Assembly (NCBI GenBank): GCA_905234865.1
Contig: CAJOJE010000003.1
Coordinates: forward strand, 62,001-126,000
Source: Candidatus Gastranaerophilales bacterium
GTDB lineage: Bacteria > Cyanobacteriota > Vampirovibrionia > Gastranaerophilales > Gastranaerophilaceae
Direction of reading: 5' to 3'
DNA length: 64,000 nucleotides
The translations under genes and the position numbers were made by a program. Below are positions 34,562-39,553 of the stretch, piece by piece (position 1 is the stretch's first letter; each line of letters opens with the position of its first letter). A model generated the notes under the pieces. That model worked only from the letters and a program-made list of their open reading frames with translations, searched no databases and was not told the DNA's origin.

Positions 34562-36298
34562 CTACATCGAAGCTCCGTAAACATTTTTTGCGGCTGCCGA
34601 ACTTAATTTATTTGTCAAAGAAGGGCTGTACGAAACGGGAATAGATTGTGCGGGGAGCTTTGTATTCGGAATATTATTTACGTTTGCTCTTTGTATATTT
34701 CCTTGATTAATGTTATTTTTTCCCAAAACATCAATTATGACGAGTCTTTTATCGTCTTTTACCGATAAACCGTTATTTTGAGGCATTTTTTTCAAATAAT
34801 CAATCAGACATTTATCTTTATCATAATCAAATCGCTTTAAAATTTGCTTATTCGCCATTTTTTCGGGAACAAAAACGGGATATTCCGTTCCTTTAGCGAG
34901 AAAGCTGTCGTAACATACGGTATAAGCTTTATCTGTCGGGTTGTTTATGTCAATTTGTGTTTTATTGCCGTTCTTATCAACAAAATACAATTCATGTAAA
35001 TTGCCCGCATTATCGGCTTTATAGCTTAAACCGGATGTATGTAAAAGCCCCGGTTCGCCGGTTTCGCTTGAATAAGTTGCTTTTAGCGAATCTTTTAATC
35101 CTTGAACGATTTCTTTTTCGCTCATATACTTTACCAGAAGTTTATTTTTCAAAGGGGTAGATTCGCTTATGTCACGTTCGGTTAAACTTCCCGTCTTTGG
35201 AACTTTTCTTGTATTTGCCGCATTAATAAAGGCAATATCGGCGCCCGCTTCTTCCCTCATGGCATCGCACATAAAGTTTGTCCAAGCGCATGGAGTTGTT
35301 CTTCTGTTTGCGGGAAGCGGATCCGTATGGAGAATTTTTGCCACAACGGGAGATTTTCCCAAAGTTGCGTCTTTCAAATAACTTAAAACGGGTGATTTTT
35401 CCGTATTCATTTTTATTAAATTGTTTTCGGCAGAAACAGGAACTCCTTTTTCGTCAAATTCGATATTTAAAATTCCCGCATTTCTTGCATTTTCGCCGGT
35501 TTGAACGATTAAAACGGGGTCACCGTCCAAATTGTTAAACAAATTCTTATTCGGTTCAATTCCTTTTACTTCGGTATGGGAGTGTCCGCCCACAATTACG
35601 TCGACTTTATGGAGTTTAGGGGCAATTTCTTTATCTTTGTCGTTTCCTATGTGCGTTATAAGAATAATTTTATCAACGCCTTGCTGAGTAAGTTTTTCGG
35701 CTTCATCATTTACGATTTTTACCGAATTTTCAATATCGTAGGGGCGAATGCCTTCCATTTTTTCATCGTCTTTTCCGCAAACGGTTTCCAAATCAAAAGG
35801 CAAAAGTCCGATTAAGCCGTATTTGTGTCCGTTTACTTCAACAATGCTTGATTTTTGAACATTGTTATAAAATTTTGAGTTGTTCGGAGCTTTTGCATTA
35901 GCTGCAATAAATTTTGTTTTATCAGGGTTTAAATATGTGTAAAAAGAACTTATCGTAGAATCAAATTCATGGTTTCCGACGGCAGATGCGTTAATTCCCA
36001 TTCTTGACAAAAGATTTATGACAAGTTTATTCTTTTTCTTATCGCCGCCTGCAATATTGTCACCGCCCGAGATTTTCAAAGTGTCTGTCGTACTCGATTT
36101 AATTTCTCTGTCAAATTTATCGGAAGCGGCAACAAGTCCCGACATATTATCTATGTTTCCATGCAAATCGTTAATGTAAAAAATGCTCAGTTTCGTCCTG
36201 CCGTCTTTATGTTGAGCGGATACAGGCGAACTAACATTTTGAGGTGTCATTACATTTATCATACAGGGATAAAACCGATGAACCTCAAAAATTGCCAT
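34562..36298 (-). CDS. 5'-nucleotidase/UshA-like metallophosphoesterase
   Basis: 578 residues, or about 566 if the ATG at 36262 (MINVMTPQN) is used; neither start has a clear ribosome site. The N-terminal calcineurin-type domain has INDLHGNI, SGGDNIAGGD, GNHEFD, ILITHIGND and GGHSHTE, the full set of metal ligands. The C-terminal 5'-nucleotidase domain (from about residue 330) holds the substrate-recognition part (FINAANTRK, GLSYKADNAG, YDSFLAKGTE). Family members hydrolyse nucleotides or UDP-sugars outside the cell, but no signal peptide is visible here, which is odd and leaves location open. Confidence 0.88.
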   Translation of the reverse strand: MAIFEVHRFYPCMINVMTPQNVSSPVSAQHKDGRTKLSIFYINDLHGNIDNMSGLVAASDKFDREIKSSTTDTLKISGGDNIAGGDKKKNKLVINLLSRMGINASAVGNHEFDSTISSFYTYLNPDKTKFIAANAKAPNNSKFYNNVQKSSIVEVNGHKYGLIGLLPFDLETVCGKDDEKMEGIRPYDIENSVKIVNDEAEKLTQQGVDKIILITHIGNDKDKEIAPKLHKVDVIVGGHSHTEVKGIEPNKNLFNNLDGDPVLIVQTGENARNAGILNIEFDEKGVPVSAENNLIKMNTEKSPVLSYLKDATLGKSPVVAKILHTDPLPANRRTTPCAWTNFMCDAMREEAGADIAFINAANTRKVPKTGSLTERDISESTPLKNKLLVKYMSEKEIVQGLKDSLKATYSSETGEPGLLHTSGLSYKADNAGNLHELYFVDKNGNKTQIDINNPTDKAYTVCYDSFLAKGTEYPVFVPEKMANKQILKRFDYDKDKCLIDYLKKMPQNNGLSVKDDKRLVIIDVLGKNNINQGNIQRANVNNIPNTKLPAQSIPVSYSPSLTNKLSSAAAKNVYGASM

Positions 36299-36329: not shown

Positions 36330-37703
36330 TTAAGCCGACAAATTTAATCGTTCATTAGACACTTTATTTTCGCCGTTTGTGAATTTCTTAAACGCATTTT
36401 TATCGATATGTTTTACAAATTCATTATGGAATTTTTGAAATTCGCTTTTATTATTCGGATTTTTCTCCTGATGATTATAGCGATATTGAGTCCAAAGCCT
36501 TGTTATTAACGACAGTGAAAAACCCATGAACAAAAGACTGAAAGCGTACGGAACGCCCGTTATTATTGCTTTTTCTTTCGTCAGGCGCTTAAATTCATCT
36601 TTTATGTTTGTGCCTTTTTTCTTTGCAATATCAGCGGCAAGTTCTTCAAGTTTATCGCTTGAAGGAATTTTTTGAACCGAACCGTCAACTCCTTTTTTAA
36701 TCAAATCGGGAAATTTTCCTTTTTTTGCAAGTATATTTTTAAATGCCCAATCAAACATCGAACCGCCAAAAATTGTATAAAATACAACTAAAGGAACTCT
36801 TGTCCAAACTTCCTTATAATCCAATTCGCCCCTGTCTTTTGCGGCGCTTGAATACCCGAATAACCCTGCTATTGCGGTAAGTGCCAGTTGCCCTTTTGAT
36901 AAATCCATTTTTCCTTTTGAACAATCAAAATCAAGATTAAGATATTCATTTAAAAATTCATCCGCATTTTTGGCAAATTTTCCGCCTTTATCCACAGCAT
37001 GCGTTTTCGCCTTTTTATCAAACCCGAAAAGACTTGATATTTTTTTCCCCGGTTCTAAAAGAGCTTCCGAGAATTTCATTGCATTTTTTGATTTTGCACC
37101 GTATTTAGCGAGAGCAAGACCGCCCAAAAGAGCTGCCGTTGAATATCCGACAGCTTTTTTAAGCTGAGTTTTGGCATGGTTTTCGACAAGTTCTTTTTGT
37201 GCTTTAGTTTCGTTTTCATCGCCTTCAAGGTTTGCAATATCGTTAAAATTAGCTTTATCAAACGTTTTTAGGGTAAATAAATTCTTTGCAAAACTCAAAT
37301 TGTATTCCGCAACGGGAACAGCGGCACATGCAAGAGTTATTCCCGCTTTTGTTGCTATGGATTGGTTTTTTACGGCATCGGTTAAAGTTTTGTCGTTTTT
37401 AATAATATCAACACTTTTTGGAATTAATTCCGTAACTTTTTCTTTTATGGCTTCGGGTTGAACCTTTTTGAACAAATTATTTCTGTATAATTTTTCGCCG
37501 ACACAAGGAGCCATAAAATAAAATATTGCAGACTCCAAAAACTCTAAAAAGCTCATTTCCGCAAAATCAGCTTTGCTTCTTGTACATACTGCTTTCGGAA
37601 GCCAGTTTGTCGTTGTATCTTGGATAAAGCGAGTATTTGATAAATTTTCCTGAGATTTAATAAAACCCGTTAATAATTTTGTATTAAAATCATCCGAAAT
37701 CAT
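36330..37703 (-). CDS. Uncharacterised membrane protein downstream of a possible attenuator
   Basis: About 457 residues, family not recognised. The N-terminal 60 residues are soluble (SNTRFIQDTTTNWLPKAV, then DFAEMSFLEFLESAIFYFMAP). Hydrophobic segments follow near residues 115-130, 190-205, 280-295, 305-325 and 390-410, separated by long charged, Lys-rich loops. The C-terminus is charged and polar. The ATG at 37703 has a TAAGGAAA ribosome site; an alternative TTG at 37733 lies in the terminator tail and is rejected. The only promoter seen upstream is at 37892-37920, so expression must pass the hairpin at 37736-37763. No function is proposed. Confidence 0.75.
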   Translation of the reverse strand: MISDDFNTKLLTGFIKSQENLSNTRFIQDTTTNWLPKAVCTRSKADFAEMSFLEFLESAIFYFMAPCVGEKLYRNNLFKKVQPEAIKEKVTELIPKSVDIIKNDKTLTDAVKNQSIATKAGITLACAAVPVAEYNLSFAKNLFTLKTFDKANFNDIANLEGDENETKAQKELVENHAKTQLKKAVGYSTAALLGGLALAKYGAKSKNAMKFSEALLEPGKKISSLFGFDKKAKTHAVDKGGKFAKNADEFLNEYLNLDFDCSKGKMDLSKGQLALTAIAGLFGYSSAAKDRGELDYKEVWTRVPLVVFYTIFGGSMFDWAFKNILAKKGKFPDLIKKGVDGSVQKIPSSDKLEELAADIAKKKGTNIKDEFKRLTKEKAIITGVPYAFSLLFMGFSLSLITRLWTQYRYNHQEKNPNNKSEFQKFHNEFVKHIDKNAFKKFTNGENKVSNERLNLSA

Positions 37704-37735
37704 GATAAATTTCCTTATATAAGCTGCGAACAAAA

Positions 37736-37763
37736 AAACCGCCTTAACGGATTAAGGCGGTTT
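37736..37763 (-). terminator. Strong hairpin terminator upstream of the membrane protein gene (attenuator candidate)
   Basis: AAACCGCCTTAA and TTAAGGCGGTTT pair over 12 bp around a 4-nt loop. On the minus strand this is followed by a U-run of about seven. It lies between the mini-ORF (stop at 37789) and the ATG at 37703. Part of its 5' arm (CGCCTTAA) is repeated inside the mini-ORF, so alternative pairings are possible. Confidence 0.8.
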
Positions 37764-37788
37764 AAAAAATTAATGTGTGTAGAAAAAT

Positions 37789-37869
37789 TCAGATGCACAT
37801 TCGTTTTATGCCGCCTGTTAAGGCGCACATGCACATCATCATTTGATTGTTCGAGTTATAAAATTTCAA
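37789..37869 (-). CDS. Met/Cys-rich mini-ORF (leader peptide or micropeptide)
   Basis: Too short for routine gene calling. From a TTG at 37869 (GGAAAA ribosome site ten bases upstream) it reads 26 codons; from the ATG at 37842 it reads 17 codons, MMMCMCALTGGIKRMCI. Five Met and three Cys among 17 residues is extreme. The sulfur codons sit directly before the segment GCGCCTTAAC, which can pair with the downstream AGGCGG. Either a leader peptide whose translation senses Met/Cys supply, or a micropeptide with its own promoter and terminator. Translation is not proven. Confidence 0.5.
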   Translation of the reverse strand: MKFYNSNNQMMMCMCALTGGIKRMCI

Positions 37870-37891
37870 AATTTGTTTTCCTTTTTTAAAT

Positions 37892-37920
37892 ATAATAAAT
37901 AATTTAAAATTAATTGTCAA
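37892..37920 (-). promoter_or_regulatory. Consensus promoter for the mini-ORF/membrane-protein unit
   Basis: Minus-strand TTGACA, exactly 17 bp, then TATTAT. Predicted start near 37885. One of only two TTGACA boxes with ideal spacing that I noticed in the window. Confidence 0.65.
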
Positions 37921-38047: not shown

Positions 38048-39067
38048 ATGAAAAAAGATATCGAATGGACAAAAATCGGCTTTTCATACATTAAAACGGA
38101 TAAACGTTTTGTGTCGAACTACAAAGACGGTTCATGGCATGATTTGGGGCTGATTGATGATGACAAAATTATATTAAACGAAAGTGCGGGAGTTCTTCAA
38201 TATGCTCAAACCTGTTTTGAAGGATTAAAGGCATATACGACGGTTGATAACAAAATTGTTTGTTTCAGACCCGATTTGAATGCCGAAAGAATGTATGATT
38301 CATGCACTTATCTTGAAATGCCCCCTTATGATAAGGATAAATTTGTTGAAGCAATCGTAAAAACAGTTGAGGGAAATATTGATTACGTTCCCCCGTACGG
38401 CACCGGCGCAACATTATATATAAGACCGTACATGTTCGGTTCAAACCCCGTAATTGGCGTAAAGCCCGCTGACGAATACCAATTTAGAATTTTTACGACA
38501 CCCGTTGGACCTTATTTTAAAGGCGGAGCAAAACCGATTGTAATAAGAATTTCCGATTTTGACAGGGCTGCTCCCAAAGGAACGGGACACATAAAAGCGG
38601 GTTTAAACTACGCAATGAGCCTGCATGCTATTGTCGATGCCCATAATAAAGGGTATGCGGAAAATATGTATCTTGACCCCGCAACAAGGACAAAGGTTGA
38701 AGAAACAGGCGGTGCAAACTTTATTTTTGTAGATAAAAACAACACCGTAATTACCCCGAAATCAACTTCGATTCTTCCTTCAATTACAAGGCGTTCGCTT
38801 TTATACGTTGCGGAACATTATCTTAACCTTAAAGTTGAAACAAGGGAAATCTTTAAAGAAGAATTGAAAGATTTTAAGGAATGCGCTCTTTGCGGAACTG
38901 CGGCGGTATTATCTCCCGTCGGAAAAATAAACGACCATGGGGAAGACATAACTTACAATATGGATTCTATGGGTGAAATTACAAAGAAACTTTACGACAC
39001 TTTGATTGGTATTCAATTGGGAACGATTGAAGCTCCTAAAGGTTGGATAAAAGTTATAAAAGAATAA
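38048..39067 (+). CDS. ilvE: Branched-chain amino acid aminotransferase
   Basis: 339 residues, class IV PLP aminotransferase of the longer BCAT type. It performs the last step of Leu/Ile/Val synthesis or the first of their breakdown. The PLP lysine is Lys183 in GTGHIKAGLNYAMS. Other motifs: ESAGVLQYAQTCFEGLKAY, RPYMFGSNPVIGV, VEETGGANFIFV and the phosphate-site region CALCGTAAVLSPVG. Monocistronic, with its own promoter and a hairpin downstream. Confidence 0.96.
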   Translation: MKKDIEWTKIGFSYIKTDKRFVSNYKDGSWHDLGLIDDDKIILNESAGVLQYAQTCFEGLKAYTTVDNKIVCFRPDLNAERMYDSCTYLEMPPYDKDKFVEAIVKTVEGNIDYVPPYGTGATLYIRPYMFGSNPVIGVKPADEYQFRIFTTPVGPYFKGGAKPIVIRISDFDRAAPKGTGHIKAGLNYAMSLHAIVDAHNKGYAENMYLDPATRTKVEETGGANFIFVDKNNTVITPKSTSILPSITRRSLLYVAEHYLNLKVETREIFKEELKDFKECALCGTAAVLSPVGKINDHGEDITYNMDSMGEITKKLYDTLIGIQLGTIEAPKGWIKVIKE

Positions 39068-39284: not shown

Positions 39285-39488
39285 TTACGCCATAACATTC
39301 AATTTTTTAACATTATCGCTTTCGGGTGCTGCGCTGTTTCCCGCAATCGGAGCACCGGAACTTTCCTGTATTCTGGTTACTTCCGTTACGGTGTCTTTAT
39401 AATCTCTTCTTACTGAAGAAATACCGCCGCCGATAGGAGATGTCATGGCACCTTTAAATGTAAAATTTTGTTGAACAGGATTTATCAT
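39285..39488 (-). CDS. Small uncharacterised protein with N-terminal FTFKG motif
   Basis: 67 residues from the ATG at 39488 (MINPVQQNFTFKGAMTS); the frame is open 11 codons further, but GAAAGGTG lies about nine bases before 39488. After FTFKG comes a Gly-rich segment (SPIGGGISSV), then a charged region and a polar, Ala/Ser-rich tail. No signal peptide or membrane helix. The start resembles the SQISFKSG start of the small protein at 24795. A TGT-TACAAT extended -10 (about 39559-39554) and a strong terminator make this an independent gene. Function unknown. Confidence 0.65.
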   Translation of the reverse strand: MINPVQQNFTFKGAMTSPIGGGISSVRRDYKDTVTEVTRIQESSGAPIAGNSAAPESDNVKKLNVMA

Positions 39489-39553
39489 ATCTTCACACCT
39501 TTCCCCGTTTCTATAAAACACATAACACGATTTTTTTGCTTCCTATATAACAA

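Follow-up and report, generated by a model that had tools for sequence, protein, structure and literature searches.

Transcription attenuators that respond to amino acids are known for biosynthetic operons. The trpL leader of E. coli ends in WWRTS and a stop codon that lies ahead of segment 2; its cognate codons adjoin segment 1 of the transcript, the 1:2, 2:3 and 3:4 helices exclude one another, and an intrinsic terminator follows. T-box and SAM riboswitches are the usual devices for methionine and tryptophan control, answering to Met/SAM or to uncharged tRNA, often by way of a terminator and an antiterminator. TnaC is not known to have an intrinsic terminator switch, and has spaced Trp codons and a site at the stop codon in common with the leaders described here. 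It senses free tryptophan in excess (ligand: PMC8429421). The his, leu and ilv leaders, including that of ilvBNC in Corynebacterium (PMC11857589), combine a long run of cognate codons with the logic of three hairpins, and control the biosynthesis of the amino acid that they sense. Finally, amino-acid biosynthetic enzymes show a cognate bias (PMC4209129): proteins required when an amino acid runs short are themselves poor in it.

The locus described here lies within 64,000 nucleotides of DNA from a Candidatus Gastranaerophilales bacterium, a stretch referred to below as the window. To judge from sequence, it very probably encodes a ribosome-mediated transcription attenuator, with charged methionyl-tRNA as the sensed molecule, that is induced by starvation for an amino acid that the cell cannot make. 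The position of the cognate codons next to segment 1, the exclusive helices and the intrinsic terminator are shared with trpL, and the long cognate run with the his, leu and ilv leaders. In contrast to trpL, the target is a membrane protein without a known family, found mostly in genomes that lack trpA and IGPS, and leaders of the Met and long Trp types extend beyond segment 2 to a second cognate codon at their end. Unlike the situation with the his, leu and ilv leaders, most hosts lack the pathway for the sensed amino acid and the target is no biosynthetic enzyme, and, unlike in T-box and SAM riboswitches, sensing would proceed through translation of a leader ORF. The element is strongly supported as an attenuator and is expected to work like the trp and his leaders; it appears to be new in its sensed amino acid, its target, its two-site leader and its link with auxotrophy. 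A limited search of the open-access literature found no methionine-codon attenuator, nor any attenuator in Melainabacteria.

Anatomy of the proposed switch

The elements of the proposed switch all lie on the minus strand of the window, in the order promoter, Shine-Dalgarno sequence, leader ORF and gene. The promoter (37892-37920) consists of TTGACA at 37920-37915, a 17-bp spacer and TATTAT at 37897-37892, matching the consensus at 11 of 12 positions. An AAGGA ribosome-binding site (37879-37883) precedes the leader ORF (37789-37869), which begins with TTG at 37869 and runs for 26 codons, (M)KFYNSNNQMMMCMCALTGGIKRMCI, to a TGA at 37791-37789; an ATG at 37842 offers an alternative start for a version of 17 codons. 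These last 17 codons include five Met and three Cys, and the Met-rich leader is kept in homologs. No ORF with at least five Met arose in 2000 dinucleotide shuffles of the window leader. The control codons, ATG ATG ATG TGC ATG (37828-37842), are followed by segment 1, CGCCT (37821-37825), which pairs with the AGGCG of segment 2 in the 1:2 hairpin. Segment 2, AGGCGG (37811-37816), is the 5' strand of the putative antiterminator, as judged from pairing and covariation. Beyond it lie the terminal CGA-ATG codons (37798-37803), a possible second site at which the ribosome is held over segment 2, and then segment 3, CCGCCT (37755-37760), which can pair with either segment 2 or segment 4. The intrinsic terminator (37729-37763) is made up of the 3:4 stem (37763-37736) and a T-rich tract, and the membrane-protein gene starts with ATG at 37703, with AAGGA in front.

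Promoter, mini-ORF, terminator, ribosome site and start codon are thus all where the original prediction had placed them, and folding reproduces the pairings that it described: 5 bp for 1:2 (-7.1 kcal/mol), and AGGCGG with CCGCCT for 2:3. It had counted the shortness of the 2:3 pairing as a weak point. The pairing is longer than that, as a further A/U-rich helix continues it, and the stretch from segment 2 to segment 3 folds with -16.3 kcal/mol (z -3.9). The terminator has a 12-bp stem, a 4-nt loop and a U-run, and folds with -15.6 kcal/mol (z -5.5). An Rfam scan of the window at the gathering threshold gave no T-box, SAM or leader family match, and a scan of nine loci at E values up to 0.1 gave no leader family (Trp_leader, His_leader, Leu_leader etc.).

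The proposed switch would operate as follows. When methionine is sufficient, the ribosome would pass the Met codons and reach the end of the leader, so that segment 2 would be covered or held in the 1:2 hairpin, the 3:4 terminator would form and transcription would end. When methionine is short, the ribosome would stall on the Met run and cover segment 1, whereupon segments 2 and 3 would pair, the terminator would be blocked and the membrane protein, together with the genes behind it, would be expressed. By standard footprints, a ribosome with the last Met (or second Trp) codon in its A site should have its edge about 13 nt downstream, covering segment 1 and freeing segment 2. We infer that such stalling and antitermination occur in vivo. 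Other members of the family appear to be served by the same device, read through Trp codons or, in one case, Ile/Leu codons, mostly where the host cannot make that amino acid.

Conservation of the leader and its alternative helices

The DNA upstream of 147 homologs of the membrane protein was read, 133 of them having distinct leader peptides, and an ORF was sought within 300 nt. Attenuator-type mini-ORFs were found in 127 of the 133 distinct upstream regions, 98 with a Trp-Trp pair and 29 with at least five Met, where dinucleotide shuffles gave averages of 1.44 and 0.06, and control stretches farther upstream gave 0 and 1 of 183, respectively; the ORF was picked by a score that favors W and M, and the shuffled and control sets had equal freedom. 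Of the 80 loci in another, GTDB-derived set, which partly overlaps the first, 79 have Met leaders, with 53 new peptides. Conservation of the Met codons, on which the original prediction had been staked beforehand, extends to 83 distinct leaders, with a mean of 7.5 Met besides the start. Most of the homologous Met leaders are preceded by a Shine-Dalgarno sequence of 4-6 matching bases, and TTGAC with a -10-like hexamer at 16-19 bp stands ahead of 52 of 80 Met and 64 of 101 Trp leaders, against a shuffled mean of about 1.

When 98 genomes were searched with covariance models built on the Met element and on the long Trp element, the strong matches (the best 19 and 17, respectively) all lay ahead of this membrane-protein family, and the Ile/Leu leader was also recovered. 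The device is apparently exclusive to one membrane-protein family in uncultured gut Gastranaerophilales. Weaker matches, with E above about 1e-4, are A/T-rich, many of them lying at terminators only, and were treated as background. Very distant homologs in two class-level relatives outside the order (G082 and G092), both of which lack trpA, IGPS and methionine synthase domains, likewise follow Met- or Trp-rich mini-ORFs and then strong terminator-like hairpins. Their leaders include the Met-rich MGMMMLMAMPMMCMAPAG... (L055) and MMCQMPMPAMMMVAMMMRL... (L057) and the Trp-rich ...GQWWWPGLTKRGFRWRGV (L062), which ends at its stop codon; the fourth locus of this kind, L060, is ambiguous. On the basis of these sequences, the pair of Met and Trp leaders may be older than the order Gastranaerophilales.

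The original prediction had offered, as its alternative, a free-standing micropeptide gene. The hairpin would then be the terminator of that gene, and the membrane protein would be transcribed separately. An ORF with promoter, Shine-Dalgarno sequence and terminator is indeed expected to give a short transcript, leader peptides with functions in trans are known (peTrpL, PMC7298713), and the C-terminal R-M of the peptide is conserved. However, the N-terminal half is not conserved and the peptides vary widely outside the Met and Trp codons, homologs have a Trp or Ile/Leu leader in the same place, the element is never strong without the membrane-protein gene in the 98 genomes searched, and CGA is the only codon used for the terminal Arg, which reflects a constraint on nucleotides or codons. 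Covariation between segments 2 and 3 would, moreover, lack a reason in such a gene, and we regard this explanation as extremely improbable.

That covariation was assessed by pairing segment 2 of each locus with its own segment 3 and with those of other species. In the Met type, the own partner gave -17.5 kcal/mol and those of other species -12.0 (30 loci; 0 of 10000 permutations); in the long Trp type the values were -18.0 and -13.3 (36 loci; 0 of 10000). The 3:4 pairing behaves in the same way. The short Trp type, which is little variable, displays a weaker preference for its own partner (94 of 10000 for 2:3). When the Met leaders are aligned, individual positions are seen to vary in all three strands together, from C-G-C to T-A-T or from G-C-G to A-T-A. 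The covariation score is 0.462 for 3:4, compared with 0.255 when shuffled (0 of 500), and 0.267 for 2:3, compared with 0.208 (10 of 500), with segment 2 misaligned in four relatives of the same genus. Since segments 2, 3 and 4 change together across species, both antiterminator and terminator are preserved. Covariation of the stems, which the original prediction had named as a check, is found for 2:3 and 3:4 and, together with the leaders upstream of the homologs, bears out the attenuator reading. The 1:2 hairpin is clear in the window and in the Trp leaders, and amounts to 3-4 bp or is ambiguous in some Met leaders. One branch of Trp leaders, ending in WWRGLV or WWRRSV (genus g25; L097, L098, L102, L104, L110, L116-L134 and similar), has a strong 2:3 pairing and a short 3:4 hairpin that lacks a clear U-run; control in this branch may take a different form, for example translational attenuation.

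Short Trp leaders (..NWWRL before the stop) resemble the end of trpL and lack a terminal cognate site. Among Met leaders, a Met lies at most three residues from the end in 76 of 83, and a terminal Trp is present in all 37 long Trp leaders, mostly 33 nt (range 30-33) after the Trp pair. Terminal Arg-Met is found in 73 of the 83 Met leaders, and in all 73 the Arg codon is CGA, a codon that accounts for 4% of Arg codons in the downstream CDSs. CGAATG is invariant in the Met alignment (A2), and the Ile/Leu leader (L032) retains GCGAATGTGA out of frame, apparently as a relic of a Met leader. CGAATG may have a role at the nucleotide level. A ribosome waiting at the terminal CGA-AUG would sit on segment 2 and favor termination. 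Published modelling traces basal read-through to early release at the stop codon of the leader (PMC1183508), so a pair of codons read slowly just ahead of that stop could cut the leak. Visual inspection suggested a hairpin between the terminal CGAATGTG and CACATT further downstream in some of the Met leaders; it is absent from others and was discarded.

A conserved Met or Trp shortly before the stop codon could also point to arrest by the nascent peptide, in which free methionine or tryptophan would be sensed and the ribosome would stall at the leader end when the amino acid is abundant, much as TnaC combines spaced Trp with arrest at its stop codon. Arrest peptides require conservation of the intervening residues, yet the leader peptides are variable between the key Trp and the stop, and those ending in WWRL have no terminal site at all. 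An intrinsic terminator with mutually exclusive helices is present, and the low content of the cognate amino acid in the protein, described below, points to expression in shortage. We consider arrest of this kind very unlikely.

Leader type, auxotrophy and protein composition

In a tree of the membrane proteins, the Trp-leader and Met-leader sides are separated by a branch with 100% support, and the window protein belongs to the Met clade. The sole Ile/Leu-rich leader, MITSLNIAIISLIIISLLDSKRLLYCECEI (L032, genome G020), sits within the Met side, at the end of a long branch. IlvC (PF01450) occurs in 87 of the 98 genomes and is absent from G020. IGPS (trpC, PF00218) was detected in 1 of 31 genomes with a Trp leader and in 23 of the order's 50 other genomes examined (p 3e-5, or 0.007 at the level of genera), and trpA in 2 of 31 and 23 of 50, respectively, in tests that ignore phylogeny and with gene absence from a draft genome being no proof of auxotrophy. 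Genome G069 is an exception, with both trpA and IGPS present and yet a Trp leader. MetE/homocysteine methyltransferase domains were found in none of 42 genomes that have the gene and a typed leader, as opposed to 6 of 39 without, and methionine synthase was not detected in any Met-leader genome; the test for Met alone is weak (p 0.33). The leader type has changed very few times, and families f2 and f3 are wholly without the membrane-protein gene, so the association with auxotrophy is partly phylogenetic.

The original prediction held that the leader senses the supply of the sulfur amino acids Met and Cys. Methionine stands as the main signal. Cysteine has a secondary place, being encoded in 66 of the 83 Met leaders and often only once, and because Met-type leaders often contain it, sensing is not confined strictly to a single amino acid. 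Sulfur metabolism as such is not upheld as the theme: a sister branch has Trp leaders, and the logic is accordingly that of starvation for an amino acid that cannot be made.

The composition of the proteins mirrors the leaders. Trp is absent from 40 of 46 Trp-type proteins and from none of the 97 Met-type proteins; in the window, none of the 24 proteins of at least 350 aa is without Trp. Met-type proteins contain 0.73% Met, compared with 1.32% in the Trp type (p 5e-11), and 0.43% Cys, compared with 1.07%. The L032 protein, whose Met leader has been lost, has 3.7% Met. In the membrane protein of the window, the depletion of Met is only slight (1.31%, where window proteins have 1.89%). As the leader type changed few times, this avoidance rests on few independent events, and the near-absence of Trp has been retained across a diverse Trp clade. 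Proteins synthesized while the leader's amino acid is scarce are expected to show such avoidance. As in cognate bias, shortage proteins would contain little of the scarce amino acid; the difference is that the family here is a non-biosynthetic membrane protein and that avoidance is near-absolute for Trp.

These patterns also bear on whether the leader could be a general sensor of translation stress, responding to antibiotics or to any starvation and using Met and Trp only because each has one codon and its tRNA is scarce. No other amino acids have just one codon, Cys codons too are frequent in the leaders, drug-responsive uORFs with similar anatomy are known (PMC12121999, PMC4191407), and the downstream gene has no known role with amino acids. 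Nevertheless, the leader amino acid follows the biosynthetic gaps, down to the Ile/Leu leader of the genome that lacks IlvC, and each protein avoids precisely its leader's amino acid, which would not be expected of a drug sensor. A general stress sensor is therefore unlikely. As the same device recurs with Trp or Ile/Leu codons, mostly where the host lacks the means to make the amino acid concerned, the protein most likely belongs to the cell's reaction when an amino acid that it needs is exhausted.

The membrane protein and its neighbors

The regulated gene (36330-37703, minus strand) encodes an alpha-helical membrane protein of 457 aa. Its AlphaFold model is confident and almost all-helical (pLDDT 87.7, pTM 0.83). 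It matched no Pfam or NCBIfam family and had no credible sequence match in the PDB, and fold searches of the PDB and a viral library were without a match (best E 0.58 and 0.035; TM of the best hits below 0.25). Homologs were found in 45 of 98 relatives and in 203 of 383 genomes of the order; a contig scan with the single protein as query gave no match, whereas a query built from an alignment succeeded. With no recognizable transporter or enzyme fold, the link of the protein to amino-acid supply is indirect. Acquisition of amino acids from outside the cell, or survival when they are short, is the most likely function, at about an even chance when judged from regulation and composition. The amino acid of each leader would indicate which amino acid each paralog answers to, a direct lead on what this orphan family does.

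A broader proposal, to which we give somewhat less than even weight, is that auxotrophs across the clade place paralogs of a new membrane-protein fold, each dedicated to acquisition of, or survival without, one required amino acid, under Met, Trp or Ile/Leu attenuators. The long leaders would then be two-site devices, in which a stall at the first run turns the gene on, and a terminal pause on segment 2, reinforced by CGA in Met leaders, locks it off. If this is true, the two-site leader would give a sharper threshold or a lower leak. The system bears on how auxotrophs cope with shortage, and is a case in which leader codons and protein composition evolve together.

Behind the membrane-protein gene, after a gap of 31 nt, lies a gene for a 5'-nucleotidase/metallophosphoesterase (34562-36298, minus strand; PF00149 and PF02872) that is probably co-transcribed with it. 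This linkage is genus-specific. In most relatives of the same genus, a winged-helix-like ORF (MEKLTKSLEKYL...; L004-L007) is located between the two; it is missing from the window. The neighbors were considered as a clue to function and set aside, the linkage with both the 5'-nucleotidase and the winged-helix ORF being confined to the genus.

On the other side, a branched-chain aminotransferase gene (IlvE type II; window 38048-39067, plus strand) adjoins the Met attenuator and is divergent from it. A separate observation concerns short N-terminal motifs, among them NFTFKGA, NFKGT, SFKG and FTSN, which recur at the starts of unrelated Gastranaerophilales proteins, among them the product of window 39285-39521 (minus strand) and the N-termini of homologs such as L010, L012 and L016. 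These motifs are possibly a shared sorting signal.
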